Assembly: GCA_036874045.1 (NCBI GenBank)
Contig: JAZBRI010000003.1
Location: 7,080,501-7,144,500, forward strand
Length of the DNA stretch: 64,000 bases
Direction of reading: 5' to 3'
From: Cymodocea nodosa
Taxonomy: Eukaryota; Streptophyta; Magnoliopsida; Alismatales; Cymodoceaceae
Positions 16,090-62,206 of the stretch are shown here, one piece after another. Numbering within the stretch: position 1 is the stretch's first letter; each line of letters opens with the position of its first letter. Made by a program: the position numbers and the translations under genes. The notes beneath the pieces are model-generated. The model ran no database searches, was not told the DNA's origin, and worked only from the letters and a program-made list of their open reading frames with translations.

Positions 16090-16096
16090 AGTTTTC

Positions 16097-16114: not shown

Positions 16115-16189
16115 CTGAAAAGCTAAATGACTATAGTGCTGTTTGTCTTCATAACATAAGGAGTGTTGTGTGTTTTTATCATTAAGAAT

Positions 16190-16860: not shown

Positions 16861-16869
16861 AACATTTCT

Positions 16870-17764: not shown

Positions 17765-17794
17765 GAATGGACTTGTCCAATCATTTGTGCATCA

Positions 17795-19181: not shown

Positions 19182-19249
19182 TAGTAGATCATTTGTTAAG
19201 ATTGCATATAGAAAAATCAAACATTGAGATTAAAGATCATTTTCCTGAT

Positions 19250-23106: not shown

Positions 23107-23111
23107 GGCAT

Positions 23112-29471: not shown

Positions 29472-29472
29472 A

Positions 29473-31023: not shown

Positions 31024-31060
31024 AAATCCAGATGGTTAAATCTTATGAAGGATTAACCTC

Positions 31061-31072
31061 GCTCTGATACCA
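31061..31072 (-). other. Primer-binding site of the copia element (initiator Met tRNA)
   Basis: On the minus strand TGGTATCAGAGC starts two bases after the LTR end CTAACA. This is the standard Ty1/copia primer site complementary to the 3' end of initiator methionine tRNA. Confidence 0.93.
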
Positions 31073-31074
31073 AT

Positions 31075-32908: not shown

Positions 32909-34115
32909 TCTGTTGTGCTCAAGAATCCATTCCATTTTTCCACAGATATTGAAAGAACATTAATAGTGGAATATGGAGAAGAGGAGGAAGAAGAAAAAGA
33001 AGAAGCTGAATAAGGAAGTACAAAAACAAAAACAAAAAAATTCAATAGATTCCACTAAAGAGAATGAGACTTTTCAATAATATATGGAGGTATTAAAAGA
33101 TAAAAGAGTGGAAAGTTCTGTAGGCTCTCCACCACAAGTAAAGACTAATGAGCAGGAATCTCTAGACTATTTTCAACAAGTACAACATCAAGTTCAACAA
33201 ATCGAGGAAGAATTTGAAGAACAAGTCCCTATAGAGCAACAAATTTAGATTTTTGACCCCACTAAAAGAATAATGATCAATGAAGTTCATTTCTAGAGTT
33301 AGGAAGCATATACTAAATACTACAAAATAAAGGAGTACAATATAATATACAATAGGCCAATTAACTAGATTGGAATAGAGGACATTAGAGAATTGTTTGA
33401 GTTCCAGGGCCTATTGGAATTAATTCCAAAAGTAAGTGGGCATGCTATTTAAGAAAACTTAGTTCCTTACTTTTATACAAATTTGAGAAAGGAAGAAGAA
33501 ATTTTGATTTCAAATGTGGAGGATGTTGACATATAGTTAACACCTAAGCTCCTTCACAATATATTTGGATTAAGGAACGAAGGAATTGAAATTCTAGAAG
33601 AAATAACTGTAGCAGAATGGATTGAACAAGAAATTAAGTAGTGCATTGCCAATGACCCTCGTGTGCCATTACTTAACAAACTAAAATACTTAAATGGCAA
33701 GGCACACATGGTAGCAACTATATTGGTGAAGGCTATTTATCAAAGACAATGTCATGATATAAAACTTAGCCAATTTGTCAAGTGGGCCACTTATGTAGTT
33801 GTAAATAGAATTTAAGTGAATTGGTATAAAGTAATACTCTCCAGGCTTAGTGTAGTAAAGAAAAAATTATTTTATGGAGAGTTGATTCCACTACTGATGG
33901 TGGAAGGTATCGATTTCACAAAATGGACATAAAAAATGATGTAATCCAAAGCCATTTTAGTGAAGGACTACAGGAATTATACTGCTATTGATGATATTGC
34001 TAGAATTACAGAACCTTCTAGAGAATCTTCATTAGCTTTAGAATGTATAAATCAATTAGAGCAACAATTAGAAAAACTTCAAAAGGAAGTAGATGAATTA
34101 AGGAATAAAGAGTAA
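32909..34115 (+). pseudogene. ORF1 of X, C-terminal part (plant transposon protein type)
   Basis: Continues the frame cut at 24170. An acidic run EEEEKEEAE leads to the segment aligned with Y 38317-39221: CYFYTNLRKEEE-like sequence, EWIEQEIK near 33620, KAHMVATILVKAIYQRQ near 33700, FVKWATYVVV, KKKLFYGELIPLLMVEGIDFTKW near 33865 and a C-terminal Leu/Gln coiled coil ending at TAA (34113-34115). The pattern 'FYANL... KAHMVA... LIPLLM' resembles the putative plant transposon protein / Athila ORF1 family. Function unknown. Stops are mainly at Gln and Trp codons. Confidence 0.6.
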
Positions 34116-34889
34116 ATGTATTAATCAGTTATTTGTTTTGTAAATTATCTAAGTGTATGTAATTCAAAATAATTTATATATATGCTTTTTGAGAATCAAT
34201 ATGATGTTGACATGTTATGATTGTGAATGATGGAATTAATTCAAAGTTTTATTGAAATCTTGAACATATATATATTTGTTTGTTTGAAGTATGACAACAT
34301 TGTTCGAGATTATGATTATGAATGAAAGGATTAAATGCTAAAGGACGTGAAAAATTTCGTTTCTACATAATAGTAAATAAATTTTGAGTTAAATATAAAT
34401 ATATGTTTAGATTTAAATGAGTTTGAATCTGGATACTAAATTAATTCTATGTATTTAATTGTATTCATGTTGATAATATGTAAGAAAGAAATATAGGAGT
34501 TAATATAAGAAGTAAGTTTCTTAGGAAAAATTTGCCTAAGTGTTAACTCAACGAAGTTAGTTCGTGGAGTTAACCTTAACTCCATGATGTTAGTAATAGA
34601 ATATAAGATCACTCCATTAAGTTATCTGTAACTCAACGAAGTTAGTCTATGGAGTTAGCAAATAGAAGCCTGAGTTAGTTGTAACTTAACGAGGTTAGTT
34701 TGTTAAGTTAGGAATAGTAACTGAGGTCACTTCATTGAGTTATCGGTAACATAACAAAGTTAGTCTATAGAGTAAGCAGAACAATTATTCTTTTTCTCCA
34801 CGAATGAGACTTCGTGTGTTTAGCAGTTACTGAAATTTAAATTTAGAAGTAGAGGATGTATCCATAAATATAGGAACCATATTGCACAT
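34116..34889. other. ORF1 3' flank of X with repeated dyads
   Basis: Non-coding. Between 34540 and 34760 an imperfect inverted repeat of the type CTCAACGAAGTTAGT(C/T)(C/T)(G/A)T(G/T)GAG recurs four times. Y carries the same array at 39655-39880 and Z the reversed one at 59040-59230. The sequence ends in CACAT (34885-34889), the left target duplication of Y. Confidence 0.6.
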
Positions 34890-37136
34890 TGTTTAGAATG
34901 AAAAAGTGCATATTATTAACGATTAAATGATGGTTAATTGCATAATATTTAGCTTATCATATAAGAATTAAGCCATTATGTTATAATTGCACTGTTATAT
35001 GCTTTAATTGAAGAATTTGCTTAATGTGGGGGAATTAATGTTAATTTAGTACATTTATGAACTGTCGGTAAGTTGCAAGCTATGAAATTCTTTAGTATCT
35101 GAATTTTCTGATATTTCGGATAGTTATGTTTAACGTACCGAACATGTATCAGATAGTTATGTTTAAATTGCCGAACAGTTATGTTTTGAGAGAATATTTT
35201 ATTATTTCTTGAAGTACACGTGTCGAAAACATAATGAATGACTTAAGTGAACTTTCAGTGAGTTATCTATAACTATCCGAAATTGTAGTTGGGCATCGGA
35301 TAGTTATCCCTGTAACTCTTTGAAATCTCTTTTTATTTATAAATAGCTAAGGACACGTGTCATGTTCTGGGAAAGTGACTTAAGTAGATTTTCGGTGAGT
35401 TAGCTGTAACTATCTGAAATGCATCTGAGCATCGGATAGTTAGACCTGTAACTCTCTGAAATGTTATTTTATGATTAAACTACTGCTGACACGTGTCGAG
35501 ATTTGGTAGATTTACTTAAGTTATATATCGGTGAGTTATTTGTAACTATCTGAAATGCATCTGAGCATCGGATAGTTAAGTTTATAAGTATCCGAAATGC
35601 ACCTGAGCATCGGATAGTTAAATTTATGCACGTGTTGAATTTAAATGCTTTAGAATATCACGTGAGATGCACATGTTTAACTCGTTAAGTTAGCATAACT
35701 GTACGCGTTGAGTTACATGAATATTACACTAAGGTAATGCATTATGTTAGCAGCTTATTTCTTTATATTTTCTAATATGCCACTATAACGGTTGCAGAAA
35801 CAGATAGTTGGAAGAGAAAAACCACGTTTGCACGTATCACGTAGGAATTCAATCGCGTAGGGAGAAGAAAGCATCGCCGTTGACATGAATGAAGGAAATC
35901 CAACCGACTATTCAAGTAGAAGCAGTTACTACTGAAGAAATATAAAAGAAAAGAAGAAAAAAGGAAGTGCGTGTGTGATCGATGGACGGACAGTGTGTGC
36001 AGAGGAGGATTGGCGACGTAATTCTCTGAAGTACCACACCAACCATCATCATCACCATCACCACACCATAATCACCAACCATCGGAGGTCTGTAAGGATA
36101 CTTGCCTGATGTTAGGTCGATTCCGAGCTAAACACAATGCCTGACAACCACTGTGAGGAGTGATCGTGTTGCGGGAAGGGAAGCCATTTTCACCAAGCGC
36201 CGACTCATATTTCAGGAGATCGTAAAGCTTTTAGCCTTGGCTTCGGGTTGATGCCTGTATGCTGAAGAGGAGATCATCTTGCAATTCTGGACTCGCGATT
36301 CTATAGGGAGAGGAGACAAAATTGTAAGTGGTTTAATTTTCAGTGGTGTAATTGCGTTGCAAGTAGTGTCGAAAGTATTTACTGTCAAGTGAGATTACTT
36401 TACATTTCACCTTTCACCCATTTCCATGTTCATATTAAAACAAAAATGCCAAAAACAATTTATCTATGTTTGTATGTTGTATTTGAGTGTTGTATTGTTT
36501 GTGTTGTATCGTGATTAATGTTATCTTTGTTAGTGTTGTGATTGTTTTATATTTATTTTAGTATTACAGTTTACTGAAATTGGTTCGTTCAAAAGACTTA
36601 AAGATTTTAATGGTTACTGTTTGAATTATTTGAATGTTAGTATTGCTCAATGATAAATCCAATGTTAACTAACATTAAAGAGCTTAATTGATATTATTTA
36701 CAATCTGTGGAATCGCCCAATGGTTGTCTAAATTCCTCTGTAAATAACAGTATTAAAAAGAAAAGACAGGTTCGTGGAGTTAACTTAAGTCCACGAGGTT
36801 AGTTCGTTGAGTTATCCATAACTCAACGAACTTAGTCCGTTGAGTTAGCTGTAATTCAATGGAGAGCTTATTGAATATATAAATTTAATTTTTAACAAGC
36901 AAACAGTTCTCAAGTTTGTCAGCAATTCCCTATGTGATCGACCTATACTTGCACATTGATACAATAGACACTGTGCACTTGCAGTTAAAGTACAAATTGG
37001 AATTAATATCTAAATTGTATTAAAGGTTGTTTGTTTACTTCTAAAAGAAAGAATAGGCATAAAGATAAATTAACTAAGTAAAAACATAAGTAACAAATTC
37101 AAGTTTTTCTAGTGTAATGTTGGGAAAACGCAAATA
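34890..37136 (+). repeat. 5' LTR of Y with about 136-bp tandem modules
   Basis: 2247 bases. CACGTG cores near 35218, 35354, 35490 and 35628 are spaced 136-138 bases apart. Each unit holds GACTTAAGT or ACTTAAGT and two dyads of the TTTCGGTGAGTTA..TAACTATCCGAAA / CATCGGATAGTTA..TAACTCTCTGAAA type. CTCAACG/CGTTGAG dyads lie near its 3' end (36770-36860). Against the 3' LTR it lacks one 32-base dyad unit near 35145. Confidence 0.9.
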
Positions 37137-37143
37137 AGTTTTA

Positions 37144-37161
37144 TGGCGCCGTTGCCGGGGA
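37144..37161 (+). other. Primer-binding site of Y
   Basis: TGGCGCCGTTGCCGGGGA, seven bases after the LTR end. This is the site known from Athila/Tat-type elements, generally assigned to an Asp tRNA. It is the best preserved of the three copies in this window. Confidence 0.88.
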
Positions 37162-37240
37162 ATTGAATTGATATAAGCAACTGTTAAAGCTGTTTCGTTT
37201 TAATAGCCAAAGTTGTGTGTTTTCTTCTATAATTGAGAAT

Positions 37241-38316
37241 ATGGCATATGCTTATGCTCAAAGATTTTTGAAACCTGTAATTAGTATATGTGAATTCTGC
37301 AATTCTAAAGGACACGGCATTTCTGATTGTTTGAAATTGAGACATTTACAGATGGTTAGATCCCATGAACAACAAATGAATTATCCTCATTATAATAGAG
37401 CCGAGTATGAGAATCCTATAGTTTACCCAACTAATGGTCAATATAGAATGTATAATATGATGAGAGACACTAAAGTTTGGGATAGCTATGACAGACTAGA
37501 GCATAGTATAGAGCAAAATCTGGACAAACTGGAATACTTTATGTGTCAACAACAAGAAGTCAACCAATTAAAGTATAAGGAAGCATATTCAGAACCTAAA
37601 CAGGATATAATTTACGAAACTGAAAAAAACATAAAGAAAATTGATCAAAAATTGAATGCTATGAAATTAGATGATCTGGAAACAAAATTAAAAGCATTGG
37701 ACGAAAATGCAATGAAAATAGAAGTTATGCAATAGGATAATGAAAATTATAATGTTATAAACCTACATAATTTGTAAAATATACAGCAAACAGAAAATAC
37801 TAATGCAAGAGAATTTAAAGAATGCACTTTAAAACTAAAAACAATTGAAGATCATAATCACAAAAATGATATACAAAAACATCATGAAAGTAACGAAAAT
37901 CTAGAAGATGTATGTGTAACATTAAGATCTAGAATTGATATACCACCAAGAACTCAAAATGAAAATGATATGAAGGTGGATAAGAGTAAAAATCAAAATG
38001 ATAATGAAAATGTAATAGCTGAAAATCTAGAAATCACTGAAGAACAATCTGAATCTGCAAATGAAGCTAAAAATGATCAAATAAATCAACTAAAAGAAAA
38101 AGAGTCTTTGAAATCAAAATCTTTAGCACCCTATCTTGAAAGATTACAACAAACAATTCCTAAAAAATAAGAAAAAATCAGAGAAATTTTTGAAAAAGTA
38201 CAAGTTAACATTCCTTTGTTAGATCTATTGCAGAAGATGCCACCTTGTGCTAAATTTCTTAAGGATTGGTGTACTAAGAAAAGAGAGTGAAAAGTTCTTA
38301 GAAAGGTCTTTTTAGC
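37241..38316 (+). pseudogene. Start of pol of Y: zinc knuckle, coiled coil, pre-protease; cut before PR
   Basis: ATG at 37241. Zinc knuckle CEFCNSKGHGISDC (about 37285-37330), then RHLQMVRSHEQQM and a coiled coil with DIIYETEKNIKKIDQKLNAM. After a TAG at 37733 the frame goes on with an acidic, Asn-rich part (VCVTLRSRIDIPPRTQ, KVDKSKNQND) and VNIPLLDLLQKMPPCAKFLK. It stops being collinear with W at 38316, just before the protease. W has the TAG at the same place (62817). The knuckle without capsid at the 5' end is a family trait. Confidence 0.75.
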
Positions 38317-39221
38317 CTATAGAAGAGGAAGAGCAAGAGCAAACCCCTTTGGAGCAACAAAGTCACCTTCCTGACCCGACTGAAACAACAATTTTGAATG
38401 AAGTACATTTTTGTAGTCAAGAAGCTTATACCAAATATCAAGAAATAAGGGGTTGCGACATTATTTACAGTAGACCAGTAAATTGGGATGGAATGCAAGA
38501 AATCAAAGAATTATTTGAATTCCAAGGTCTACTGCAATTTATATCTCAAGAAAGAGGGCATGCAGTATATGAGAATTTAGTGCCCTGTTTCTATGCAAAT
38601 TTGAGAGAAAGAGAAGGAGGATTAATTTTAAACGTGGAGGAAGCTGATGTATAGATAACACTAGAGCTTCTCCACAACATTTTTGGTTTAAAGAATAAAG
38701 GAACAAAAATTTTGGAAGATACAATTGTAGTCGAATGGACTGAATAGTAAATTAAGGATTGTTTAGCTATCAATCCTGGTGTGCCATTATTAAACAGATT
38801 GAAGCATTTAAATGGTAAAGCACACATGGTAGCTAACATTCTGATTAAGAATGTTTATCAACGATAAGGCCATGATATAGAATTTAGTCAATTTGTCAAA
38901 TGGACCACATATGCAGTTGTAAATAAGATCCAAATAAATTGGTCTACAGTTTTTATCTCCAAACTGAAAACAGTGAAGAAGAAATTATTTTATGGAGATT
39001 TGATTCCACTACTGATGGTGGACTGTATCGATTTCACTAAATGGACATCAAAAAGGATAAGATCAAGAACCATTTCAGTGAAAGAATACAGAAATTTTGT
39101 AGCTGCAGAACTAGCTGTACCTTTTGGTGGAATTACAGGAGCAGTAGAGAGGATTAATTAATTAGAGTTTTAATTAGAAAAACTCTAGAAGGAAGTAGAT
39201 GAACTTAGGCATAGAGATTAA
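38317..39221 (+). pseudogene. ORF1 of Y, C-terminal half
   Basis: Starts at the deletion junction with EEEEQEQTPLEQQ. NEVHFCSQEAYTKYQEI, the FEFQGLLQFISQ segment, VPCFYANLREREGGLIL, AHMVANILIKNVYQR, QFVKWTTYAVVNK and KKKLFYGDLIPLLMVDCIDF follow. It ends with a C-terminal coiled coil and TAA at 39219-39221. It aligns with X 33220-34115 and with the minus-strand copy in Z. The family resembles the plant transposon protein / Athila ORF1 type. Stops at 38653, 38746-38751 and 38866 are mostly former Gln codons. Its role is unknown. Confidence 0.65.
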
Positions 39222-40125
39222 ATTGTATTGTTCGTTTACTTGTGTAAAATTGTATAAAATTGTATGATGTACTTTTAATGTAATTGATTTATATTAGTGA
39301 ATGTAAATTTTTCAGATGCAATTTTCATACGTGTTTTGGATGTGAAATGAATGGAATTTATTGAATATTATGTTATTGTGAAACTTTATGAATAAATATA
39401 TAACAGATTTACAATTTGCTGAATGACACGATAACTACTTAAAAATTTCTGCATGTTATAAGGTAAAATGTAAATTCTGCATAACATAAAATGACCTGCA
39501 AGTTAAATCTTTATATCATGCTCAAATTTAAACGTATTTTAATTAGAATGATGCATTAATGACATAGATTTAACTTTATTACAGTTAGCAGAAGGAAAAA
39601 AAGAAAAAAGAAAAGAACAGAGAAGAACTTACGAGAGTAAAACTTAGATGTTGCTAAGTGTTAACTCAACGAAGTAAGTCTATTGAGTTAACCGTAACTC
39701 CACGAGGTCAGTAATATAATATAAAGTCACTCCGTTGAGTTATCTGTAACTCAACGAAGTTAGTCTGTGGAGTTAGCAACAGTAACCGACTATATTTTGT
39801 TGAGTTTTTTGTAACTCAATGAGGTTAGTTCGTGGATTAAGCAGAACAGTTATTCTTTTAACCACGAACGAAACTTCGTTGGTTTAGCGGCCACCAAAAT
39901 TTAAAATTAGTAGTGGTACACGTACCCATATAAACAGGAACCACGATGCATGTTGCAAGCCACGTTCTTGCAACGAGAGTTATTCACTTTATGGATGCAT
40001 AGTATATATATAAAACAGAATGTTATTTACGAGTTACCAGCACTTTAAAAGAAAGGAGAATGCTTTGGAGGAATTGGAAGGAGAAGCAGCTGATTCAACT
40101 TCATCCGACAACAAATATTTATAGA
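39222..40125 (+). promoter_or_regulatory. Internal promoter region of Y upstream of gag
   Basis: Non-coding spacer with four CTCAACG-type dyads (39655-39880) and a TATA-like box TATATAAAA (about 40007-40015) 111 bases before the gag start codon at 40126. Z has the classical form TATAAATA at the same place and nearly the same distance; X has TATAAAAA (46938). Conservation of a TATA box, a leader of about 80-90 bases and a start codon argues for a separate transcript for gag and F-box. This is inferred from sequence only. Confidence 0.55.
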
Positions 40126-41516
40126 ATGGAAAGCTTCAGACTGGTATGTAATTAATCTTCTGCTATTTATTTATGAGCGCATAGACTCGTTCTCTAAGCA
40201 CTAAATGATTAGTAAGAACACCTACCTAGGAATTTTCATTATAGAGGAGTATTGAAAAAATTTCTAAACTGAACTTTAACGAAATTCTCTGGGGTGTAGC
40301 TAACCTTTCTTTAAAAGAGAACGTAGAGATGACTGCTCCAGTAGAAAAACCATTAGGAGAGATTCTATATCCTGAATTAGTTGATGAACCTTCATGTATT
40401 CAATTGCCAAACTTTGAGGGAGATGGGTTTGAACTAAAATCTAATTATATTAGTCAATTGCCACATTTTCATTGATTAGAAAGAGAGGATGCCTATTATT
40501 TCCTTAGAGAATTTAACGAAGTTTGTCAAATGATGAAAATGCCGAACATGAGTATAGATGCTATTAAACTTAGATATATCCCTTTTTCTTTAAAAGACAC
40601 AGTTAAGAGATGGTTATATACTTTGTCGCCTGATTCAATTTCTACATGGACTGAATTTTGCTCTGTTTTTCTGAAAAAATATTATCCAACACATCAAACG
40701 ATTAAAAAGAAGAAAGAAATATTAATGTGTAGCCAAAAATAGGGTGAATCATTCTGGAAATATTTTGAAAGATTTAAAGATTTACTGACTCAATGTCTAC
40801 ATCATGCAATGAGTAAAGCACAACTAATATGTATAATTTATGAAGGCATAGATGTTTCAACGAAATCTTTATTAGAATCTACTTGTCAAAATGGATTTTT
40901 AAAATTATGTAGTGAAGAAGCATGGGCATATTTAGAGAATTTTACAAAAGGAACTGCATAGTGGGAAAATTCGGCTGAAGCTATTGCAGATAAAAGAAAA
41001 TTGCCAAGAGGAATGCATGAAATAGATTCCAATACTATGCTTGAGGTGAAATTAAATGAATTAACAAAGAAAATAGAAGAGTTATCATTAAATCAAAAGC
41101 TAGCAGAAAAGAATGCAAACATAAATGACTTAGATATTATTTATGTTAGAAACCAGAGAGATAACTTGGGAAATTCTTATCATCCTAATTGGAGAAATCA
41201 CCCGAATTTATCTTAGAGAAACAACAATTTCCAGGGAGGGGAAAATATAAATGAGAAGAACATAAGTTATGAAGTATTAATTGAACAAGGAGCTAGAATA
41301 GAGAAATTAGAAAAGATAATCCAACAAGTAAACAATGGTCTAGAATTTATATTTGGAAATGCTGCAATTCAAAATCAGAATAGAAATATATCACTTAGAT
41401 AGAAGGAACCAATGGAAGTTAGACCTACTGGAGGATTGCCAATACAAGCTATACCTAATCCTGTCAATAGAACGGTTAATGAAATTGATACCTCTTCTGG
41501 GAGGGCAACTAAATGA
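40126..41516 (+). pseudogene. Gag (capsid) of Y with a small in-frame intron
   Basis: A first exon of six codons (40126-40143) ends at G/GTATGT. The intron is 40144-40244 (acceptor ATTATAG). Exon 2 opens in frame with RSIEKISKLNFNEIL and runs to TGA at 41514-41516. The capsid core is of Athila type: LPNFEGDGFELKSNYISQLP, MSIDAIKLRYIPFSLKD, KRWLYTLSPDSISTWTEF, FLKKYYPTHQT, YFERFKDLLTQC and IIYEGIDVSTKSLLES. A helical part with LNELTKKIEELSLNQKL and an Asn/Gln-rich tail follow. There is no zinc knuckle at its end; that motif sits at the start of pol instead. Stops at 40475, 40739, 40959, 41214 and 41399. Capsid protein forms the virus-like particle. Confidence 0.8.
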
Positions 41517-41705
41517 AGCAGCATATCTGAAGCAACTATCTGTATGTATATATGTTTTTTATTTTTAGTTAATAGTATTGTAGAGTTAATTTTTAACTCA
41601 ACGAACTTAGTTCGTTGAGTTATGCCTTAACTCCATGAGAGTGTGTAGTATCATGTTAATTTTTGTCTCTACTAAATTTTTGTTTGTGTTTTACAGAATC
41701 GATAA
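41517..41705 (+). promoter_or_regulatory. Gag/F-box spacer: perfect dyad and splice-acceptor-like site
   Basis: A perfect palindromic stretch centred on AACGAACTTAGTTCGTT lies at about 41597-41622. GTTTGTGTTTTACAG ends at 41696, a good plant acceptor ten bases before the F-box ATG. Possible donors are GTATGT at 41542 or the gag exon 1 donor at 40144. X has the equivalent ATGAATACAG at 48233-48242. Confidence 0.5.
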
Positions 41706-42845
41706 ATGGAATTGATGCAATTACCGTTGGATGCACTAAGGGAAGTACTAAGTAACTTGTCAGCTAAAGATCTGTGTAGGTTGTGTTGTGTATCAAAGGA
41801 AATTAAAGACTATATTGAAGAAAAATATTTTCAGAGACTACAAGCTGCAAAAATGACTAAGATTAGAGATTGATTCATATGGAGGTCATTTAATCGTAGT
41901 TCAAATACCCATGAATATCTGGCTATGGAAGAAACTACTAGAATTCCACCCAATGCATTAGAAGGAATAAATCATATTATGGGGATAGATGAAGGATTAA
42001 TCATATAGAAGACGAGACCAAGGTATGCAAGTTTATTATTACCTGATATTTTGATAAGAAATCCTAAAATAGGAGAAGAATGGAATATAGGAAGACCTAA
42101 TAGATTTGAAGCACCAACTGTAAATTGTGGGTCAGCTTTGATATTTTTCGATAAAAATTCTACAATTACTGAAAAATTATATTATTGGAGACCTACAGGA
42201 AATTGGGGTAAAGATTTACACTTAAGTGTGTATAATTTTCTGAACAGATCTTGGAATGAAAATATTATGATATATCTAGGACATAAATCATTAATTAACC
42301 AAACACATGTCATATTTGATGGATATATATATCTAGTCACGGAGATATCATTAGCATATGGATCTAATTTATACATAGTGAGCATAGACAGTTATGATGA
42401 ATATATAGAAATTTTACCTGTACCAAGTGAAATAGCTAAACCACCATCTGCAGAATTTAATGAAATTCAAATAGGAATGTGGTATAATGAAGAAGATGAT
42501 CCTACGTTATGTCTGATAAGATGGTGGGATGAACTGATGAAATTTCAAATATGGATTATGGAAGACATTAATGAATGGAAATGGGAAGAGAAATATATTG
42601 AAATAGATGTAGAAATAGAAACTACTACATTACCCAAGAACCAAAAAGGATCCCTTTCTACATTACATATCATTAATGGTAATACACTCGTATTTAGAAT
42701 TTATAATATATTACATGTTTACAAATTAAGAAGGAACAAGAACTGCATTAAAACAGAATTAATAGTAAGAAGAACTATGCCTAAAAAGTTTGCTTGGACT
42801 AATACATTTATTCCATTTGTTTCTACTTTTCAATCATGTTCTTAA
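41706..42845 (+). pseudogene. F-box protein encoded by retrotransposon Y
   Basis: F-box proteins are the substrate receptors of SCF (SKP1-cullin-F-box) ubiquitin ligases. The N terminus carries an F-box: LPLDALREVLSNLSAKDLC followed by RLCCVSKEIKDYI (about residues 6-37), with the LP, VL..L, DL and CCVSK positions expected. The rest, to residue 379, resembles an F-box-associated beta-propeller: GYIYLVTEI, LYIVSIDSYDEYIEILPVP, LCLIRWWDELMKFQIWIM, EWKWEEKYIEID and a final NILHVYKLRR strand. ATG at 41706 follows a splice-acceptor-like site by ten bases. Two in-frame stops (41869, 42016) break the first third; 42051-42845 is fully open. It lies between gag and the 3' UTR in both copies that retain this region. 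The domain calls rest on motif reading, not on a search. Confidence 0.75.
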
Positions 42846-44603
42846 GCTACGATTTTGTGTGTTTAATGTTGTGTGTATTCTACATTTATTGTTAAAATAA
42901 AATTAAAAAATTTATAGTTTTCATTTTTATTTTATAAAAGAAAAAAAAAACAAAATATCAATCTAGTTTGTTGGTATTTGTTCTGGGAAACCAACTGGCT
43001 TGCTTGTGAGCCACCAAAGGCATAAGAGCCTGGGTTCCACACAAGACACTGATTTATTAATATCTGTTAAATGTTATTTTATTTTATATTTTTCTTTTAT
43101 CTGTGAATGAAAAGTTTTTAAGAATCAAAAATCAGAATATGTAGAAGGAGATACAAATGAAACAAGGTATGTAACTAATTACTCATCTTCAATTTTAAAT
43201 CAAGCAAAACTGTATTCATGTCTACTACAATTACTATACTTATTGTGAAATCTTTTTACATTGAGGACAATGCAAAATATTGGTATGGGGGGAGGTAATT
43301 GAAGTAACATCCATGTAAGTTTGTTAATTAAAGAAATTAAAATGGTATTGCAAAGTTTTGAGGAAATTGAAAATTTTTATGAACTTGCTGTAACTATCTG
43401 ATAAATGAGATTGTAAAATTTTTATAAACTGCTTGAATGTTATATTTAGAAGGCTATATAAGATGCTATTGAATTTACTATTTATGCAAATCTAGATATA
43501 GTATCTTATGTTTTTCTGAATTTCATGAGTTCAACAGTTTCACGATTTTAAAATGAAATCAGAATGCTTAATGAAAAAAATCAGTAAATTATCTAAAGTC
43601 CTAAAAGAGCTGAGATATGAATTCTAGATTAAATGAAACACATATGATTAAAGATACATTTAATTTGACTGATTGAACTTGTAGAATGATTTATGTGTAG
43701 ATCTTATTAAACTACAGAAAAAGTATGAGCTTATTGTTATGGATTCATATTTTCAGTAACTGATAGAAGCAGGACTATATGAGATTAGCGTTTTACTACA
43801 TCTGTATTAATGAAATACATATATATATAGTATGTGATTAATGTTTTGTTTTGTGGTTGTAGTTTAAAAAAAAAAAAAAAAAATTGAGAGTTTATTGACT
43901 TGTTTGATCACGAGACTTTTGTACTTGAGTAAATAGGTATGTAAGGATTGTTGACCTGAAAAAGGACTCTTGAAATCTGGCAACCTAAGATCCTGATCAG
44001 ATCTGGGATTATTGATTGAAAGCTCGTTACATGGGTACATTAGAAAGCTCTTGTATGATTCAAGCTTGTCAAATTAACTTTTAAAGTACGAAAAAAAAGA
44101 AAAAAGAAAAAAAAAGAAAAAAATATACATATACTGTTCTGAAAAGATACAAGTGTTTTGTGAAATACAGATATCTTATGAATCGAGTATATTTTCTGTT
44201 ATCTAGAATTGCTGAAATATGAATCTGGAATTGACTTTTGAAGTTGTTTAATGGAGATACAATTCTTTATTCTACTTGTCTTAATCAGATTGAATTGGAT
44301 TGTACTCTGATTCGTATGTTGTTGAAATTTCTTCTAGAAATCTTATTGGAAAATTTAAGATGACAGATGATGAAAAGAACAAATAATAATATAATTAACA
44401 CCTATATGATGATGATATACTTGGTATGTAATTTACATATATTCTAAGTATATTTGCAGGTTGATTACTGAAACATACAGAATATATTTTTATGCTAAAC
44501 AGAAGAAAAATAAAAGGGGAAGAATTAATTCTAGCACTTTTAAAGACCAATTAATTAGATCTTAGGTTGCTAAGGAACTAGCAAAATTAAGGTATGGGGG
44601 AAG
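42846..44603 (+). other. Long 3' UTR of Y with conserved block, internal PPT-like motif and PPT
   Basis: Non-coding in Y and X. A block at 42960-43045 (AACCAACTGGCTTGC...AGCCACCAAAGGC) is far better conserved with X (49525-49610) than its surroundings and can form a TGGCT/AGCCA hairpin. TTGAGGACAATGCAAAA followed by GGTATGGGGGGAGG (43261-43295) has the form of the PPT region of Athila-type elements, yet lies 1.3 kb before the LTR. The true PPT (GGTATGGGGGAAG, 44591-44603) abuts the LTR. An A-rich run is at 43865-43883 and another at 44090-44125. Confidence 0.6.
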
Positions 44604-46882
44604 TGTTTAGAATGAAAAAGTGCATATTATTAACGGTTAAATGATGGTTAATTAAATAATATTTAGCTTATCATACAAGAATTAAGCCATTATGTTATAA
44701 TTGCACTGTTATATGCTTTAATTGAAGAATTTGCTTAATGTGGGGGAATTAATGTTAATTTAGTACATTTATGAACTGTCAGTAAGTTGCAAGTTGTGAA
44801 ATTCTTTAGTATCCGAATTTTCTGATATTTTGGACAGTTATGTTTAACATACCGAACATTTTCGGACAGCTATGTTTAACAAACCGAACATGTATCGGAT
44901 AGTTATGTTTAAATTGCCGAACAGTTATGTTTTGAGAGAATATTTTATTATTTCTTGAAGTACACGTGTCGAAACCATAATGAATGACTTAAGTGAACTT
45001 TCGGTGAGTTATCTATATCTATCCGAAATTGCATCTGGGCATCGGATAGTTATCCTTGTAACTCTTTGAAATCTCTTTTTATTTATAAATAGCTAAGGAC
45101 ACGTGTCATGTTCTGGGAAAGTGACTTAAGTTGATTTTTGGTGAGTTAGTTGTAACTATCTGAAATGCATCTGAGCATTGGATAGTTAGACCTGTAACTC
45201 TCCGAAATGTTATTTTATGATTAAACTGTTGCTGACATGTGTCAAGATATAGTAGATTTACTTAAGTTATATATCGGTGAGTTATTTGTAACTATCTGAA
45301 ATGGATTTGAGCATCAGATAGTTAAGTTTATAAGTATCCGAAATGCACCTAAGCATCAGATAGTTAAATTTATGCATGTGTTGAATTTAAATGCTTTAGA
45401 ATATCACGTGAGATGCACATGTTTAACTCGTTAAGTTAGCATAATTGTATGTGTTGAGTTACATGAATATTACACTAAGGTAACGTGTTATGTTAGCAGC
45501 TTATTTCTTTATATTTTCTAATATGCCACTATAGCGGTTGCAGAAATAGACAGTTGGAAGAGAAAAACCACGTTTGCACGTATCACGCAGGAATTCAATC
45601 GCGTAGGGAGAAGAAAGCATCGCCGTTGACATGAATGAAGGAAATCCAACCGACCATTCAAGTAGAAGAAGTTATTACTGAAGAAATATAAAAGAAAAGA
45701 AGAAAAAAGGAAGTGCATGTGTGATCGATGGACGGATAGTGTGTATAGAGGAGGGTCGGCGACGCAATTCTCTGAAGTACCACACCAACCATCATCATCA
45801 CCATCACCACACCATAATCACCAACCATCGGAGGTCTGTGAGGATACTTGCTTGATGTCGGGTCGATTCCGAGCCAAACACAGTGCTTGACAACTACTGT
45901 AAGGAGTGATCGCGTCACGGGAAGGGATGTCATTTTCACCAAGCGCCGACTCATATTTCAGGAGATCGTAAAGCTTTTAGCCTTGGCTTCAGGTTGATGC
46001 CTGTATGCTGAAGAGGAGATCATCTTGCAATTCTGGACTCGCGATTCTATAGGGAGAGGAGACAGAATTGTAAGTGGTTTAATTTTCAGTGGTGTAATCG
46101 CGTTGCAAGTAGTGTCGGAAGTATTTACTGTCAAGTGAGATTACTTTACATTTCACCTTTCGCCCATTTCCATGTTCATATTAAAACAAAAATGCCAAAA
46201 ACAATTTATCTATGTTTGTATGTTGTATTTGAGTGTTGTATTGTTTGTGTTGTATCGTGATTAATGTTATCTTTGTTAGTGTTGTGATTGTTTTATGTTT
46301 ATTTTAGTATTACAATTTACTTAAATTGGTTTGTTCAAAAGACTTAAAGATTTTAATGGTTACTATTTGAATTATCTAAATGTTAGTATTGCTCAATGAT
46401 AAATCCAATGTTAACTAACATTAAAGAGCTTAATTGATGTTATTTACAATCTATGGAATCGCCCAATGGTTGTCCGAAGTCCTCTGTAAATAGTAGTATT
46501 AAAAAGAAAAGACAGGCTTGTGAAGTTAACTTAAGTCCACGAGGTTAGTCCGTTGAGTTATCCATAACTCAACAAACTTAGTCCATTGAGTTAGCTGTAA
46601 TTCAATGGAGAGCTTATTGAATATATAAATTTAATTTTTAACAAGCAAACAGTTCTCAAGTTCATCAGCAATTCCCTATGGGATCGACCTGCACTTGCAC
46701 ACTGATACAATAGACACTGTGCACTTGCAGTTAAAGTACAAATTGGAATTAATATCTAAATTGTATTAAATGTTGTTTGTTTACTTCTAAAAGAAAGAAT
46801 AGGCATAAAGATAAATTAACTAAGTAAAAACAGAAGTAACAAATCCAAGTTTTTCTAGTGTAATGCTGGGAAAACCCAAACA
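44604..46882 (+). repeat. 3' LTR of Y
   Basis: 2279 bases, pairs with 34890-37136. It carries one additional 32-base dyad unit near 44860-44890 (TTTTCGGACAGCTATG). Ends CCCAAACA, followed by the CACGT target duplication. Confidence 0.92.
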
Positions 46883-47044
46883 CACGTTACAAGACACATT
46901 CTTGCAACAAGATGCATCTGCAAATAGGGACGTGCATTATAAAAACAAAGTAGAATGTTATTTATTGGTTACTAGCATTGAGTAAAAACAAGAGAACTCA
47001 TTGGGAAACTGAAAGGAGAAGTTGCTGATTCAACTTCATCTATC
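46883..47044 (+). promoter_or_regulatory. Internal promoter/leader of X upstream of gag
   Basis: Right-hand continuation of X after Y. It holds TATAAAAA (46938-46945), then AGTAGAATGTTATTTATTGG and the GGAGAAG..GCTGATTCAACTTCATC leader shared with Y and Z. The gag start exon, intron and N-terminal capsid codons are deleted: the leader joins directly to the middle of the capsid at about 47039. Confidence 0.5.
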
Positions 47045-48005
47045 CCTATTAAAGTTAGATATATTCCCTTTGCTTTACAAGACATAGCTAATGGATGGCT
47101 ATATACTCTAGCTCCTAATTCAATTTCTATGTGGATTGAATTTTGTTCAATTTTTCTAGAAAAATATTATCCAACTCATCAAACAACTAAGAAGAAAAAG
47201 GAAATATTAATGTGTAGTCAAAAACAAGGAGAATCATTTTGAAAATATTTTGAACGATTCAAAGATTTGTTGACTCAATGTCCACACCATGCAATGAGTA
47301 AGGCACAATTAATAGATATAATTTATGAAGGCATAGATGTTTCCACTAAATCTTTATTAGAATATACCTATCAAAATGGATTTTTGAAATTGTGTAGTGA
47401 GGAAGCTTGAGCTTATTTAGAAAACTTTGCAAAAAGAAACTTAGTGGGAAAACACGGCTGAAGCTATTACAGATAAGAAAATATTGCCAAGAGGAATGCA
47501 TGAAATTGATTTAAGTACTATGCTTGAAGTCAAATTAACTGAATTAACTAGGAAAATAGAAGAGTTATCATTAAATCAAAAACTAATAGAAAAGAATACA
47601 AATATTAATGACCTAGATGTTATTTATGCTAGAAGCTAGAAAGATAATTTTGGTAATTCTTATAATCCTAATTGGAGGAATCATCTGAATTTATCTTGGA
47701 GGAATAACAATTTCCAAGGAGGAGAAAATATAAATGATAAAAATTCAAGTTATGAAGTATTAATTGAACAAGGATCTAGAATAAAGAAATTAAAAAAAAT
47801 AATTCAACAATTAAACAATCGTCTAGATCATGTGTTTGGAAATGCTACCATTCAGAATCAAAACATGAATAGAAATATACTTCCTAGATAGAAGGAGTCA
47901 ATAGAAGTTAGATCTATAGGAGGATTGCCAAGTCAAGCAGTACCGAACCCTTTGAATAGAACTATTAATGAAATTGATACCTCCTATGGGAGGGAAACTG
48001 AATGA
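47045..48005 (+). pseudogene. Gag (capsid) of X, 5'-truncated
   Basis: Collinear with Y gag from the middle of the capsid: KVRYIPFALQDIANGWLY, FLEKYYPTHQTTKKKKEI, YFERFKDLLTQCPHHAMSK, LIDIIYEGIDVSTKSLLE, then a frameshift near 47440. The tail has LTELTRKIEELSLNQK and ends with TGA at 48003-48005 after EIDTSYGRETE. The N-terminal part is missing by an internal deletion that fused it to the leader. Stops at 47240 and 47408 replace Trp codons. Confidence 0.75.
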
Positions 48006-48253: not shown

Positions 48254-49390
48254 ATGGAATTGATGGAATTACCACTAGGTGTACGAAGAGAAATATTGAG
48301 TAATCTATTAGCTAAAGATCTATGCAAATTGTGTTGTGTCTCAAGACAAATTAAAGAATGTATCACAGAAAGATATTTTCATGGACTACAAGCTGCAAAG
48401 ATGACCAACATTAGAGATGTATTTTTATGGAAGTTATTCAATCATAGTAAAATCAGTTATGAATATCTAAATATAAAAGAAATTGTTGGAATTTCACCCA
48501 ATATATTAGAAGGAATAGATTATATTATAGGAATAGATGAATGATTGATCATATATAGAACTAAACCAAGGTATGCTATTTTGTTCCCTAATATTTTTAT
48601 TAGAAATCCTATAACTAGAGAAGAATGGAATATAGGAAGACCTAATATATTTGAAGTACCAACTAAAAATTGTGGGACAACCTTAATATTTTCTAACAGG
48701 AATTCAACATTTCCTAAAAAATTATTTTATTGGAGACCAAGTAGAAATTGAGATGAAGGATTATGTTTAAGTGTTTACAATTTTATGAATAAATCTTAGA
48801 TTGAAAATGTTATGGTATATCTAAGAGAGAAAACACTAGTCAACAATATTCATGTGATACTTGATGGATATATATATCTAATCACAGATATATCAGTTGC
48901 ATTTAGATCTAATCTATATATAGTGAGCATAGACAATTATGATGCATTTATAGAAATATTACCTATACCTCAAATTATAGTTGAACCACCATTTGTAGAA
49001 TATGATAAAATTCAATTGGAAATATGGTATAGTGAATCTGATAATCATACTTTATGTCTAGTAAGATGGTGGGATGACTTGATGAAATTCTAGATATGCA
49101 TAGTGAAAAACTTGAACAAATGGAAGTGGGAAGATGAGTACATTGAAATATATGTAGAAATAGAAACACCTACATCATCATGGTCGAGAAGAGGATCTCT
49201 ATCTGCATTTCAATTCATTAATGATAATACTCTCATATTTAGTGTTGATAACATATTGCAAGTTTATAAATTAAAAAGACAAGTAGACTGCATTAAAGTA
49301 GAATTAACAGTAAGGAGAATAATGCCTAAAGGTTTTGCTTGGACTAACATGTTCATTCTATTTGTTACTACTTTTCAGTCATATTCTTAA
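48254..49390 (+). pseudogene. F-box protein encoded by retrotransposon X
   Basis: Second copy of the F-box gene, in the same position as in Y. F-box: LPLGVRREILSNLLAKDLC followed by KLCCVSRQIKECI (residues about 6-37); it is open through residue 96. The downstream part keeps IRNPITREEWNIGRP, GYIYLITDISVAFRSNLYIV, IDNYDAFIEILPIP, LCLVRWWDDLMKF and NKWKWEDEYIEI. Four stops (48542, 48749, 48797, 49091) interrupt it. Those at 48749 and 48797 replace Trp of Y and that at 49091 replaces Gln, all by transitions. Differences from Y are spread out and many are conservative (for example EILP/EILP, RWWDE/RWWDD), as if the protein had been under selection before both copies inserted. Confidence 0.75.
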
Positions 49391-51319: not shown

Positions 51320-54300
51320 TGTTTAGAAGGAAAAAATGCATAATATTAATGATTAATGAATGGTTAATTGGATAATATTTAGCTTATCATATGAGAATTA
51401 AGCCATTACATTACATTTAAGCAATTATGAGCCTTAATTACAGAATATGTATAATTTTATGGAATTAACATTAATTAAATATCATTTCTAAAAGATTGAA
51501 AGTATAATACATGTGATTTTACCAAGTAAGTTTACATACCCTCATATTTTAAACATTATAAATTTATACATTGATTCTAGAAGGACATGTGTCTTAACCT
51601 TAATATATGATTTAAGTTGTTCTTCGAACAATTTTGATGTAAACTATTCGAAATGTGTTTGAGCATCGGAGAGTTACATTTTGAAAATATTCGAAATACC
51701 CCTTTACCATTGAAAAGTTGGTTTAAAATTATAACTTATTTCTTTATGACTGTTTAGAATAAAAAAGTGCATAATATTAATGATTAATGAATGATTAATT
51801 GCATAATATTTAGCTTATCATATGAGAATCAGGGCATTATGTTATAATTACACGGTTACATGCCTTAATTAAAGAATATGCATAATTTCATGGAATTAAC
51901 ATTTATTAAATATCATTACTAAAAGATTGAAAACTTCGTTTACATGTGATTTTATAGTATTAAACATGATATGTTTTATTTGCACATATTTATATCATGT
52001 ACAAGTGCATAGTAATAACTCGTTGAGTGCAGGTTTAAAAGTGAAAATTTATCACGTGTCAATTCATAATGTTATGCAAGTAAGTTTATGGAACTTCGTA
52101 AAGTTAGAAATTATCGCATACGTTAACTATTAAATGATAAAGAATTACTTCTTTTACATATTAAATGAAATGTTATAAAAATATTTGTTTTATTAAACTA
52201 TAGAGCTAAATGAGTCCGTTGAGTTAAGCTTAACTCAACGAGATAAGTCCATTAGATTATAGTTAAGTCAACAAGGTAAGTCTATTGAGTTACACTAACT
52301 CCATTGACCAATTATTTTCTAATATTCAAATGTGAGTAGTTGCAAAAATAGGAAATCTAAAAGAAAATCACGATTGCATATATCACACAGGATTTAACTT
52401 GTGGAATGAAGAAGAAATCACTATCGTTGATACAAATGAAAGAGATCCAACCGATCAATTAGGCGGAAGTAGTTACTATTGAAAGAAATATAAAAGGAAA
52501 AGAGAAAAATGAGGGAAGGTGTCGAGAATCACACTAATTGCAACAAGCGTTGGTAGTTTCTTGAAGCTCCACAAGACCACCACCAATCACCAACCATTAG
52601 AGTTCTGTGAGGATACTTTCCAGATGTTGAGTCGATTTCGATCCAAACATGGTGACTAACAACCACTACGAGAAGTGATTGCATTACAGGAAGGGAAATC
52701 ATTTTCACCAAGCACCGAATCATCTCTCAAGTGATAGTAAAACTTCTAGCCTTGGTTTTGGGTTGATGCCAATATACTAAAGAGGAGATCAACTTACAAG
52801 TCTCGGTTCGCAATTCTATAGGGAGAGTGATGCGTGATAGTAAGTGATTAAGTTTTTAGTAGTGTAATCGTGTCGTATGTAGTGATAGAAGTTTTTACTA
52901 TCAATATAGAATTTTACATTATACCTTTCATTCGTCTTTAAGAAAATATCATAACAAAGACAAATGAAAAACTCATTATATGCTTTTATATTTATCAAAT
53001 TAGTGTTGTATAGTTTGTTTAGTATTGTTGAATGTTTTATATTTATTTCATTTTAGAAAATAGAAAATCATTTTACTAATTATTGAAACGAGTTTGTATG
53101 CAATTCTAAAATCTTGATTAATATGGTTACTATTTGAAATATCTGAATGTTAGTGTTTATTAATGATAAATACTGTATAAACTAACATTAAAAAGCTTAA
53201 TGGATGTTGTTTACATTATGTGGAACTGCCTAATGGATGGTTGAATTCCTTTGTGAATAGTAAAATTAATTGGAAGTTACTAATGACGCTTGTGGAGTTA
53301 AATTAAGTTTACAAGGATAGTTTATTGAGTTTATTGTAACTCAATGAACTAAGTCTGTTGAGTTAGCAGTAAGTCAATGGAGTGAGTAATTTAACACACA
53401 TAAACCTGTGACTATAAAAATCAAAATAGTATGAAATTTTTACTCAATCTCTACGGGATCGACCTATATTTGCTCATTTATGTAATAGACATTGTGCACT
53501 TGTAGTTAAAAACAAATTAGATTTAATATCTAATTTATGAAAATTGTTTGTTTACTTTTAAAAGAAATTATGAACATATAATTAAAGTAAATGAAATTCA
53601 CCCAAACAATGACACATGACAAAGATATTATTTATATATATATAAGTCCATTAAGTTATAGTTAACTCAATGAGGTAAGTCCATTGAGTTATAGTTATAC
53701 TATCACCATGGACTAGTTATTTTCTAATATTCAATTGTGAGTAGTTGCAGAAATAGGAAATTCGAAGAAAAACCACGATTGCACGTATCACGTAGGATTT
53801 AAATCGTGGAATGAAGAAGAAATCACCATCACTGATACGAATGAAGGAGATCCAACTGATCATTTAGGTAGAAGCAATTGTTATTGAAAGAAATATAAAA
53901 AGAAAGGAGAAAGAATGAAGAATAGAGGGTGGAGAACTGCGCTAACTACAGTAAGTGTCCGTAGTTCCCTGAAGCTCCATCACACCACCACCAAAAAACA
54001 ACCACCAACCATTAGAGGTCTATGAGGATACCTTCCAAATGTCAAGTCGATTCTGAGCCAAACATAGTGACTAACAACCACAATGAGGAGTGATCACGTT
54101 GCAAGAAGGGAGACTATTTTCACCAAGCACCGAATCATCTCTTAGGAGATAGTAAAACTTCTAACTTTGGTTTTGGATTAATGCTAATATAGTGAAGAGG
54201 AGATTAACTTACAAGTCTCGATTTGTGATTCTATAGGGAGAGGGATGCATAACAATAAGTGATTAAGTTTTTAGTGATGTAATCACGTCACATGTAGTGA

Positions 54301-57149: not shown

Positions 57150-57346
57150 ATTTCGGATAGTTACAGGACTTAATAAACACAAATTTAACAGAGACAAAAT
57201 TAACATAGCTACTTACACACCCTCATGGAGTTAAGTCATAACTCAACAGACTAAGTTCATTGAGTTAAGTAATAACTCTATAATCTTACTAACTATAATT
57301 AAACTTATATATATATATTATACATAATTACTTTAGTTATACTGCT

Positions 57347-58758
57347 TCATTCAACTTCCCTCCCATAGGAGGTATCAATTTCATTAACAATTTTGTTGAC
57401 AGGGTTAGGTACTACTTGCATTGGAAATCCTCCCGTAGGTCTAACTTCTATTGATTCCTTCTGTCGAGGGGGTATATTTCTATTCATATTTTGATTTTGA
57501 ATGGCATCATTTCCAAATACAAGATCTAGACGATTGTTTAATTGTTGAATTATCTTTTCTAATTTCTCTATTCTAGATCCTTGTTCAATTAATGCTTCAT
57601 AACTTATATTTTTGTCATTTATATTTTCTCCTCCCTAGAAATTGTTGTTTCTCCAAGATAGATTCGGGTGATTTCTCTAATTAGGGTTATAAGAATTTCC
57701 AAAGTTATCTTTTTGGTTTCTAACATAAATAATATCTAAGTCATTAACATTTGCATTCTTTTCTGCTAGTCTTTGATTTAATGATAACTATTCTATTTTC
57801 TTTGTTAATTCAGTTAATTTCACTTCAAGCATAGTGCTTGAATCTATTTCATGCATTCTCCTTAGCAATATTCTTTTATTTGTAATAGCTTTAGCCGAGT
57901 TTTCCCACTATGTAGTTCTTTTTGCAAAGTTTTCTAAATATGCTCATGCTTCTTCACTACACAATTTTAAAAATCCATTTTGACAAGTAGATTCTAATAA
58001 AGATTTCGTTGAAACATCTATGCCTTCATAAATTATACCTATTAATTGTGCTTTACTCATTACATGATGTGGACATTGAGTTAGTAAATCTTTAAATCTT
58101 TCAAAATATTTCTAGAATGATTCTTCCTATTTTTGGCTACACATTAATATTTCCTTTTTCTTTTTAATCATTTGATGTGTTGGATAATATTTTTCTAGAA
58201 AAACAGAGCAAAATTCAATCCATGTAGAAATTGAATCAGGCGACCAAGTATATAACCATCTCTTAGCTATGTCTTTTAAAGCAAAAGGGATATATCTAAG
58301 TTTAATAGTATCAATACTCATGTTCGGCATTTTCATCATTTGACAAACTTTGTTAAATTCTCTATGGAAATAATTGGCATCCTCTATTTCTAATCCATGA
58401 AAATGTGGTAATTGACTAATATAATTAGATTTCAATTCAAACCTATCTCCCTCAAAGTTTGGCAATCGAATACATGAAGGTTCATCAACTAATTAAGGAT
58501 ATAGAATTTCCCCTAATGGTTTTGCTACTAGAGCAGCTATATCTTCATTCTTTTTTAAAGAAAGGTTAGCTATACCCTTAAGGATTTCGTTAAAGTCCAA
58601 TTTAGAAAATATTTCAGTACACCTTTGTGTTGAATAATCCTATGTAAGTGTTCTTACTAATCATTTAGTACTAGGAGAACGAATCCATGTGCTCATAAAC
58701 TCTTAACATAAAGTAAAATAGCAGAAGATTAATTACATACCAGTCTGAAGCTTTGTAT
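57347..58758 (-). pseudogene. Gag (capsid) of Z
   Basis: The best preserved capsid sequence of the family. The start exon (58758-58741) has ATA in place of ATG. The donor GTATGT follows at 58740; the acceptor AG has become AA. LPNFEGDRFELKSNYISQLP, HFHGLEIEDANYFHREFN, LRYIPFALKDIAKRWLY, FLEKYYPTHQMIKKKKEI and LIGIIYEGIDVSTKSLLE continue to VVPNPVNKIVNEIDTSYGREVE and TGA at 57347-57349. Stops near 58494, 58125, 58115 and 57670 replace Glu, Gln or Trp codons. As in Y there is no zinc knuckle. Confidence 0.8.
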
Positions 58759-62199: not shown

Positions 62200-62206
62200 A
62201 GTTTTA

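Follow-up and report, generated by a model that had tools for sequence, protein, structure and literature searches.

A family of long terminal repeat (LTR) retrotransposons in the genome of Cymodocea nodosa carries an F-box gene as its last gene before the 3′ LTR, and as judged from the genomic sequence this gene is element-borne, family-wide, spliced and constrained. It was analysed in a 64,000-nt stretch (positions 7,080,501 to 7,144,500 of contig JAZBRI010000003.1, i.e., C3:7080501-7144500 of the 374.6-Mb host genome; hereafter the window), in which two elements of the family, Y and X, contain one copy each. A working F-box gene in such a family suggests that the element steers the protein-destruction machinery of its host. 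The best reading, which we hold with considerable confidence, is that the gene encodes a substrate receptor, or adaptor, of a SKP1-cullin-F-box (SCF) ubiquitin ligase, and the target of this predicted adaptor would probably, though far from securely, be a host protein that hinders the element.

The F-box genes of elements Y and X

A preliminary description of the window had reported a gene of about 379 codons with an N-terminal F-box in both elements, and its coordinates, lengths and strands were all right:

41706..42845, + strand: Y F-box gene, 379 codons plus stop, with in-frame stops at codons 56 and 101
48254..49390, + strand: X F-box gene, 378 codons plus stop, with 4 in-frame stops

The placement between gag and the 3′ LTR was borne out, and the Y and X genes occupy the same relative position. 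In a blastn self-comparison the X sequence breaks at 34889 and resumes at the corresponding place at 46883, i.e., Y was inserted inside X, and the two are therefore independent insertions of one family. Both window copies are broken, by 2 in-frame stops in Y and 4 in X, which had been overlooked. The start used here, at 41706 in Y, has been retained in both elements; in the Y-type copies an upstream in-frame ATG, which is not conserved in Z, may possibly be the true start.

The F-box itself was recognized by Pfam PF00646 in Y (E=6.4e-10) and in X (E=2.3e-6), both above the curated cut-off, and all 8 intact genomic copies described below also passed it. The C-terminal part had been likened to F-box-associated (FBA) domains, and here the likeness was weaker: FBA_1 matched Y at E=0.0098, under the cut-off, and X gave no FBA_1 match. 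Among the 8 intact copies, F_box_assoc_1 (TIGR01640) matched 7, with E values of 9e-7 to 2e-5 that were all under the curated cut-off, and FBA_1 matched 6 weakly, also under its curated cut-off.

A protein database search with Y returned no relative at E up to 0.01, and an X/Y profile compared with 5.8 billion proteins returned none even at E up to 10; the search method requires shared 5-residue words, so that both results are weak evidence for absence. A control query from the same window recovered 7,862 relatives among 7,995 scored, many of them from named plants. Hence, the F-box gene may have diverged strongly from the F-box proteins annotated so far, or the database searched may lack its kin. 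Among solved structures, the X/Y profile gave two chance-level matches only, both to RNA-dependent RNA polymerase 2 (E=0.63 and 0.66), and a profile of the eight intact copies gave no match; a scan of IMG/VR revealed no relative of the F-box gene. A scan of the genome with PF07734 was without a match, but its control was equally silent. As to the proposed uptake of a host gene, a plant-type F-box gene is now resident in a retrotransposon family, but no particular donor gene was found by the protein searches or the PF07734 scan, and no dedicated likeness search of the genome was made.

The F-box gene is present across the family and follows pol

With the Y gene as query, 40 out of 4,323 first-look candidates, chosen by likeness to Y, were scored, and all 40 aligned along the full or almost full length of the gene with at least 95.6% identity; the gene is thus not confined to the two elements in which it was first noticed. 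The X gene as query added 39 loci at 85-89% (41 rows, of which one was X itself and one a split piece). We took the sequences of 39 Y-like copies with their flanks and of 16 of the 39 X-like genes. The F-box gene was intact in 8/40 Y-like copies, a full-length frame from the expected start was found in none of 17 X-like copies, and gag was intact in 1 of 30 full-length matches. When gene starts were counted genome-wide by pattern, ~1,170 were obtained.

Of 39 stretches of ~5.2 kb around the gene, 31 contained gag, all 39 the region that follows the gene, 37 the beginning of the 3′ LTR and none pol. An ordinary host F-box family, some members of which merely lie inside or beside an element, would account for the F-box domain itself, and divergent host genes could escape a selection made by likeness to Y; element parts nevertheless accompany the gene in the proportions just given, and we regard this explanation as hardly credible. 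When the upstream 7-8 kb of four copies were analysed, pol was present in 4/4, although in L051 only the integrase end was seen, with other insertions between. The order in these longer copies was LTR, open reading frame (ORF) with a zinc knuckle, protease (PR), reverse transcriptase (RT), RNase H, integrase, acidic/Transposase_32-like ORF, gag-containing intron or its splice junction, and F-box gene; in L048 the Pfam domains RVT_1, RT_RNaseH, Integrase_H2C2 and rve followed each other in this order. The F-box ORF is therefore found family-wide in sense orientation between pol and the 3′ LTR, in the env-like position (aORF-3S). The picture of a gag-plus-F-box element given in the preliminary description was right as to these two genes and incomplete otherwise, since the longer copies hold pol and the F-box gene is spliced. 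Two arrangements, small pol-less elements made of gag plus F-box and a bipartite system in which pol and gag reside on different elements, were ruled out by the presence of pol upstream in 4/4 longer copies.

The place of gag is also unusual. No Retrotrans_gag match was obtained upstream of PR in the six 5′ ORFs scanned, and gag was found only 3′ of pol, where a capsid-type gag is entirely intronic (40144-41698 in Y, and L048-L050); the 5′ ORF retains the zinc-knuckle region only. In the scanned ORFs there was no match to the Athila ORF-1 domain PF03078, Transposase_32 was weak (E=0.024), and for RNase H, of which Tat, Ogre and Retand have a second, archaeal-type one, only RT_RNaseH models were above the cut-off (RVT_3, E=0.053). 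The element is best read as a Ty3/gypsy LTR retrotransposon that is Athila-like in layout, a name that describes this likeness and is not meant to file it as an Athila member. In addition, the acidic ORF that follows integrase in L050 (1680-2585, - strand) contains the hydrophobic-acidic stretches VDLISEDEEEE and INLLSDSEEQEE, which we take to resemble SUMO-interaction motifs.

Spliced copies and a candidate internal promoter

The features that bear on the expression of the gene in Y are the following:

40003..40018, + strand: TATA-like site, candidate internal promoter, 125-140 nt upstream of the 5′ splice site
40144..41698, + strand: intron containing gag, 1555 nt, GTATGT...TTTTACAG
40329..41516, + strand: Y gag, within the intron and broken by stops (Retrotrans_gag E=8e-18 from 40476; start codon assigned by eye)

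Five of the 39 fetched copies (L011, L017, L020, L025 and L045) lacked exactly the stretch that corresponds to Y 40144-41698, from GTATGT to TTTTACAG, the whole of gag included. Such an exact loss of a GT...AG intron from genomic copies indicates that spliced F-box RNA was reverse transcribed. Two further copies, L040 and L047, carried other deletions without splice-site ends, and L021 was unmapped upstream of 41618. In L017 the LTRs are ~95% identical and the target-site duplication (TSD) is perfect (CATTG/CATTG), so that this copy arose by ordinary LTR retrotransposition of a spliced RNA. In a tree of the copies, the ancestor of the five spliced ones spans 38 of 41 tips; L011 and L017 are close sisters and the others stand apart, the inner branches are short, and the separation of the two main groups has supports of 0.89 and 0.97. 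Several separate events of splicing and retrotransposition are likely, because the spliced copies are scattered in this tree.

For the genome-wide count, the junction and intron-end patterns were counted within two mismatches; they differ at six positions, so that no site can match both. There were 984 intron-end and 186 junction matches (controls 0), which gives a spliced share of ~16% (95% confidence interval 13.8-18.1%), a count in which spliced daughters of spliced copies are not separated from independent events. About 1/6 of the counted copies being spliced is above the expectation if spliced RNA were efficiently excluded from particles. The splice sites are mostly retained: in the 34 other copies the donor was GTATGTAA in 26, a different string in 3 (with GTAAGT in one of them) and unlocated in 5, and Z, a further element of the window, shares the donor string of the Y-like copies; the acceptor ended in ACAG in 28 and in ATAG in 2, deviated in 2 and could not be located in 2. 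Among 39 copies examined, the flank was located in 34, all of which showed the TATA-like core, and the strings of Z and X are TATA-like by eye. An internal promoter at this site would explain the translation of an F-box gene that lies behind pol. A palindromic motif of the AACTCAACGAA...TTCGTTGAGTT type occurs as ~four repeats at 39649-39843, before the putative promoter, and recurs once at 41581-41625, between gag and the F-box gene; these may be regulatory sites.

This arrangement could also serve self-control, which would be compatible with an adaptor and differs in the target: the F-box protein would mark the element's own Gag, or another protein of the element, and so limit copy number or time the assembly of particles. 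Splicing of the F-box RNA removes exactly the intron that holds gag, so that one RNA can give either Gag or the F-box protein, a natural switch; the high copy number of the family does not suggest restraint.

Selection on the F-box gene

The X and Y genes can be aligned from end to end with a single indel, of 3 nt, against 15.8 predicted from the rate of the flanking non-coding DNA (P ~2e-6), and X has 4 stops against 18.2 expected (0/2000 neutral simulations gave ≤4); with too few indels and too few stops for neutrality, the frame was not kept by chance. The ratio of nonsynonymous to synonymous rates (dN/dS) between X and Y was 0.43 (bootstrap 0.31-0.60), to be read against the 0.52-0.81 that the wrong frames of the same alignment already give, since the method is biased below 1. 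Neutral simulations with the flanking substitution pattern had a mean of 0.87, and 0/2000 reached 0.43. Other methods implemented in Biopython gave 0.29 (maximum likelihood), 0.34 (YN00) and 0.70 (LWL85).

The copies themselves were then compared by the corresponding ratio for polymorphisms (pN/pS). In the 40 Y-like copies it was 1.04 for singletons, 0.62 for variants in 2-4 copies and 0.45 for those in at least 5 copies; with stops counted as nonsynonymous these values were 1.18, 0.72 and 0.49 (Fisher test of singletons versus 5+, p=0.017). An inert passenger, i.e., a captured gene that is copied along without function, is disfavoured and in our view very improbable. Plant LTR elements commonly capture host genes (PMC3726574), and 32/40 copies are broken; singletons, however, behave neutrally and common variants do not, the frame has been maintained at 22% divergence, and the splice sites and the TATA-like site are mostly retained.

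The fixed differences between the Y-like and X-like subfamilies again gave 0.43 overall, well away from the value near 1 of an unconstrained gene. This constraint is uneven along the protein: codons 1-45 gave 0.05 (5 synonymous, 1 nonsynonymous), codons 46-200 gave 0.44, codons 201-315 gave 0.69 and codons 316-379 gave 0.65, so that the F-box domain differs from the rest of the gene (p=0.018 on rounded counts of fixed differences). None of the regional ratios of fixed differences was above 1. A decoy, in which the protein merely binds SKP1 and starves the SCF complexes of the host and the C-terminus does little, would predict that strong constraint is confined to the F-box domain, where 1 of the 6 fixed differences is nonsynonymous; yet the reading frame persists along the entire gene with a single in-frame indel, and the ratio for codons 46-200 is 0.44, which leaves the decoy improbable. 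A conserved dock with a changing target face would fit an adaptor that chases a moving host target, and relaxed constraint would look similar.

For gag, the comparison of Y with X gave a dN/dS of 0.19 and that of Y with Z one of 0.41. The dS values of X versus Y were alike, 0.53 for gag and 0.49 for the F-box gene, and hence both were inherited together. Joint ancestry over the same time would suit self-control, but under self-control one might also expect evolution in step, whereas the C-terminal part is fast (0.44-0.69) and gag is tighter; we consider marking of the element's own proteins unlikely, although it is the strongest competitor for the target.

A probable element-encoded adaptor of the host ubiquitin ligase

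From the above results the following sequence of events is proposed. An Athila-like Ty3/gypsy element would have taken up a plant FBA-type F-box gene and kept it as a permanent accessory gene, the final one ahead of the 3′ LTR. Unspliced RNA can yield Gag, and in spliced RNA, as the spliced genomic copies show, an upstream exon is joined to the F-box gene; transcription probably starts both in the LTR and at the internal TATA box. The strongly conserved N-terminus of the F-box protein would then bind host SKP1, and the faster-evolving C-terminal part would present a target to the SCF ubiquitin ligase. Both SKP1 docking and substrate delivery are deduced from the domain and from selection. Ranked by target, a host protein comes first, the element's own Gag or another of its proteins second and a SKP1 decoy third, and absence of function takes the remainder.

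Several points weigh against an adaptor role. It is a prediction from genomic sequence; the FBA profiles match Y and most of the eight intact copies only below curated cut-offs, with no FBA_1 match in X; and structure predictions of stop-free pieces were unusable (predicted local distance difference test scores, pLDDT, of 30 and 42). The dN/dS of X and Y lies close to the wrong-frame values, constraint outside the F-box domain is weak, the pN/pS of the 17 X-like copies is non-monotonic (0.64, 0.83 and 0.30 by class), and none of these copies gave a full-length frame. The in-frame exon-1 extension of the Y-type copies is not conserved in Z. Finally, the two spliced copies for which the upstream region was fetched retain pol, so that the F-box gene is not first in that RNA, and the internal promoter that would solve this problem is itself a candidate.

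As a tentative extension of the adaptor reading, the spliced F-box protein might act in counter-defence, turning the SCF ligase of the host on a silencing or restriction factor, with a splice switch from an F-box phase to a Gag phase; action against a host silencing factor, which the preliminary description had suggested, thus stays at the level of a proposal, and that description is partly supported overall. If true, the F-box phase would disarm the host and the Gag phase would build particles, in parallel with retroviral accessory genes and polerovirus P0. Independently of this extension, a gene of this kind makes the old question of whether retrotransposons actively disarm or regulate their hosts open to test with one protein.

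Elements Y, X and Z and other features of the window

The remaining features of Y are:

34890..46882, + strand: element Y, probable pol-deleted derivative nested in X (blastn self-comparison; ends and flanks)
34890-37136 and 44604-46882, + strand: Y LTRs, 95.2% identical, Kimura two-parameter distance (K2P) 0.050
37144..37160, + strand: primer-binding-site-like TGGCGCCGTTGCCGGGG after the Y 5′ LTR; a one-mismatch string follows the 5′ LTR in L048 and L049
37172..38167, + strand: Y orfA, with 2 stops and a zinc-knuckle string, CX2CX4HX4C, recognized by eye (no better than E=0.32 with Pfam zf-CCHC_2)
38314..39185, + strand: what remains in Y of the acidic ORF, together with a Transposase_32-like region (weak match below the cut-off, E=0.024)
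44591..44603, + strand: purine-rich tract 5′ of the Y 3′ LTR

The flanks of Y form a near-TSD (CACAT/CACGT, 4/5 bases agree), its LTRs end in TG...CA by eye, and the primer-binding-site-like string is presumably of the tRNA-Asp type. The 5′ part of orfA is common to the pol-bearing relatives, with a dN/dS of 0.29 against the element at 60346-64000. Y seems to be a derivative that lost pol, the deletion being placed by means of the L050 map.

The pieces assigned to X, and element Z, are:

14712..16008, + strand: X 5′ LTR, aligned part; K2P 0.187 (867 sites) versus 52213-53082 and 0.098 (377 sites) versus 51320-51746
16162..20565, + strand: X orfA, PR, RT, RNase H and integrase (Pfam, tblastn; collinear with L048-L050)
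23107..24169, + strand: X acidic ORF region, between a minus-strand LTR (21359-23106) and a copia element (24170-32908)
32982..34889, + strand: X Transposase_32-like region, which ends at the Y insertion
46883..48005, + strand: rest of X, including gag; X lacks the 5′ splice site and the 5′ part of gag
51320..53608, + strand: X 3′ LTR region, of uncertain exact shape; further LTR copies begin at 51751 and 53642
57175..60344, - strand: Z

Within the pol region of X, RT lies at 18081-18374, RNase H at 18549-19178 and integrase from 19606-19962 onward, and PR was assigned by likeness to 63404-64000. The window pieces 14712-20565, 23107-24169, 32982-34889 and 46883-53608 keep the same order on contiguous genomic stretches; X would accordingly be one element split by the minus-strand LTR, the copia element and Y, and by this collinearity the pol-bearing stretch 14712-20565 would belong to it. 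The weighted K2P of the X LTRs is 0.160, which makes X older than Y. With substitution rates that we assume to be 7e-9 to 1.3e-8 per site per year, the insertions would date to about 1.9-3.6 million years ago for Y and 6-11 million years ago for X. With Y gag as a tblastn query, the in-window matches were the copies of Y, X and Z only. Z stops at 57175 against copia-LTR-like sequence (by eye), which bears on the idea that Z is a pre-capture form without the F-box gene.

Other insertions were also observed. The copia element at 24170-32908, on the minus strand and nested in X, has LTRs that are 92.8% identical. A truncated related pol-bearing element (53642-56871, + strand) breaks within RT near 56866 at LTR-like sequence (by eye), and a further pol-bearing family member starts at 60346 and leaves the window at 64000, with 60825-63402 being 89.8% identical to the Y 5′ part. 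Outside the family, an ORF that by eye resembles a PIF/Harbinger-type transposase lies at 11107-11517, and a similar ORF is found in L051. A coding-looking stretch at 7678-8073 (- strand), with a low-complexity run in front, is by eye like a plant GILT-type thiol reductase.

Comparison with known systems

Accessory ORFs of plant retrotransposons have often been reported, and in the accounts considered here their biochemical roles are mostly unassigned. Polerovirus P0 and nanovirus Clink are viral F-box proteins; the F-box of P0 is minimal, and the protein on which P0 acts is ARGONAUTE. The protein described here would resemble them as a parasite-encoded F-box protein that enters the SCF of its host, although it appears to be of a plant FBA-like class. 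VANC proteins of VANDAL DNA transposons are sequence-specific anti-silencing proteins (PMC5735166, PMC10398659); a transposon accessory protein that counters host silencing has been shown there and is merely proposed here, where a ubiquitin-ligase adaptor is predicted.

No retrotransposon family that carries an F-box gene was described in the titles and abstract openings of the papers retrieved from an open-licence collection, so that a prior mention is possible, and the word F-box is absent from the main texts of PMC7264820, PMC11963269, PMC11728184, PMC6317226, PMC3726574, PMC13317346 and PMC12786077. Captured genes are well known. Bs1 of maize is a gene capture by a plant LTR element (PMC13317346), and 672 captured genes in rice, 1,343 in sorghum and 424 in maize were reported; for some of them amplification by retrotransposition was noted, and for some purifying selection (PMC3726574). 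Here, too, a host-type gene under selection lies within an LTR element, but captured genes exist in one or few copies as stated in PMC7264820, whereas here there are ~1,170 gene starts, two subfamilies and a splice arrangement of their own. In Thlaspi arvense an F-box family gene was classed as an LTR-associated gene copy (PMC8764390), a case of gene-family expansion that in the text of that source is not described as a standing gene of a retrotransposon family.

Introns are held by plant Ogre and EVADE, and a spliced RNA of Caenorhabditis elegans Cer1 encodes a nuclear protein (PMC12786077). As in these elements, a separate product is obtained from an LTR element by splicing; their introns and products are others, with no F-box in the main text, and the gag-containing intron and the retrotransposed spliced copies set the present family apart. 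The OTA elements carry extra ORFs with domains that recur in a lineage, i.e., the plant mobile domain in Ogre, Transposase_28 in Retand and Athila ORF-1, the domain PF03078 of the latter being reported in 16% of Athila elements (PMC6317226); the family resembles them in this respect, and the main text of that account is without an F-box. In position the gene resembles the sense accessory genes of Athila and Bagy2, which encode env-like or unidentified proteins, the Bagy2 message being spliced (PMC7264820). There as here, the gene is the last before the 3′ LTR and is present in most copies of the family, and splicing is shared with Bagy2; unlike there, as far as that text goes, its product is an F-box protein of plant type, and gag is found within an intron downstream of pol. 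The accessory ORF of this family thus combines a domain of well-understood activity, traces of its expression route and a selection pattern that separates the ligase dock from the rest, and with its intronic capsid gene behind pol the family also deviates from the textbook gag-pol order. Accessory genes as such are known from plant LTR elements; what would be new is a biochemically telling F-box gene in an unusual gene order.
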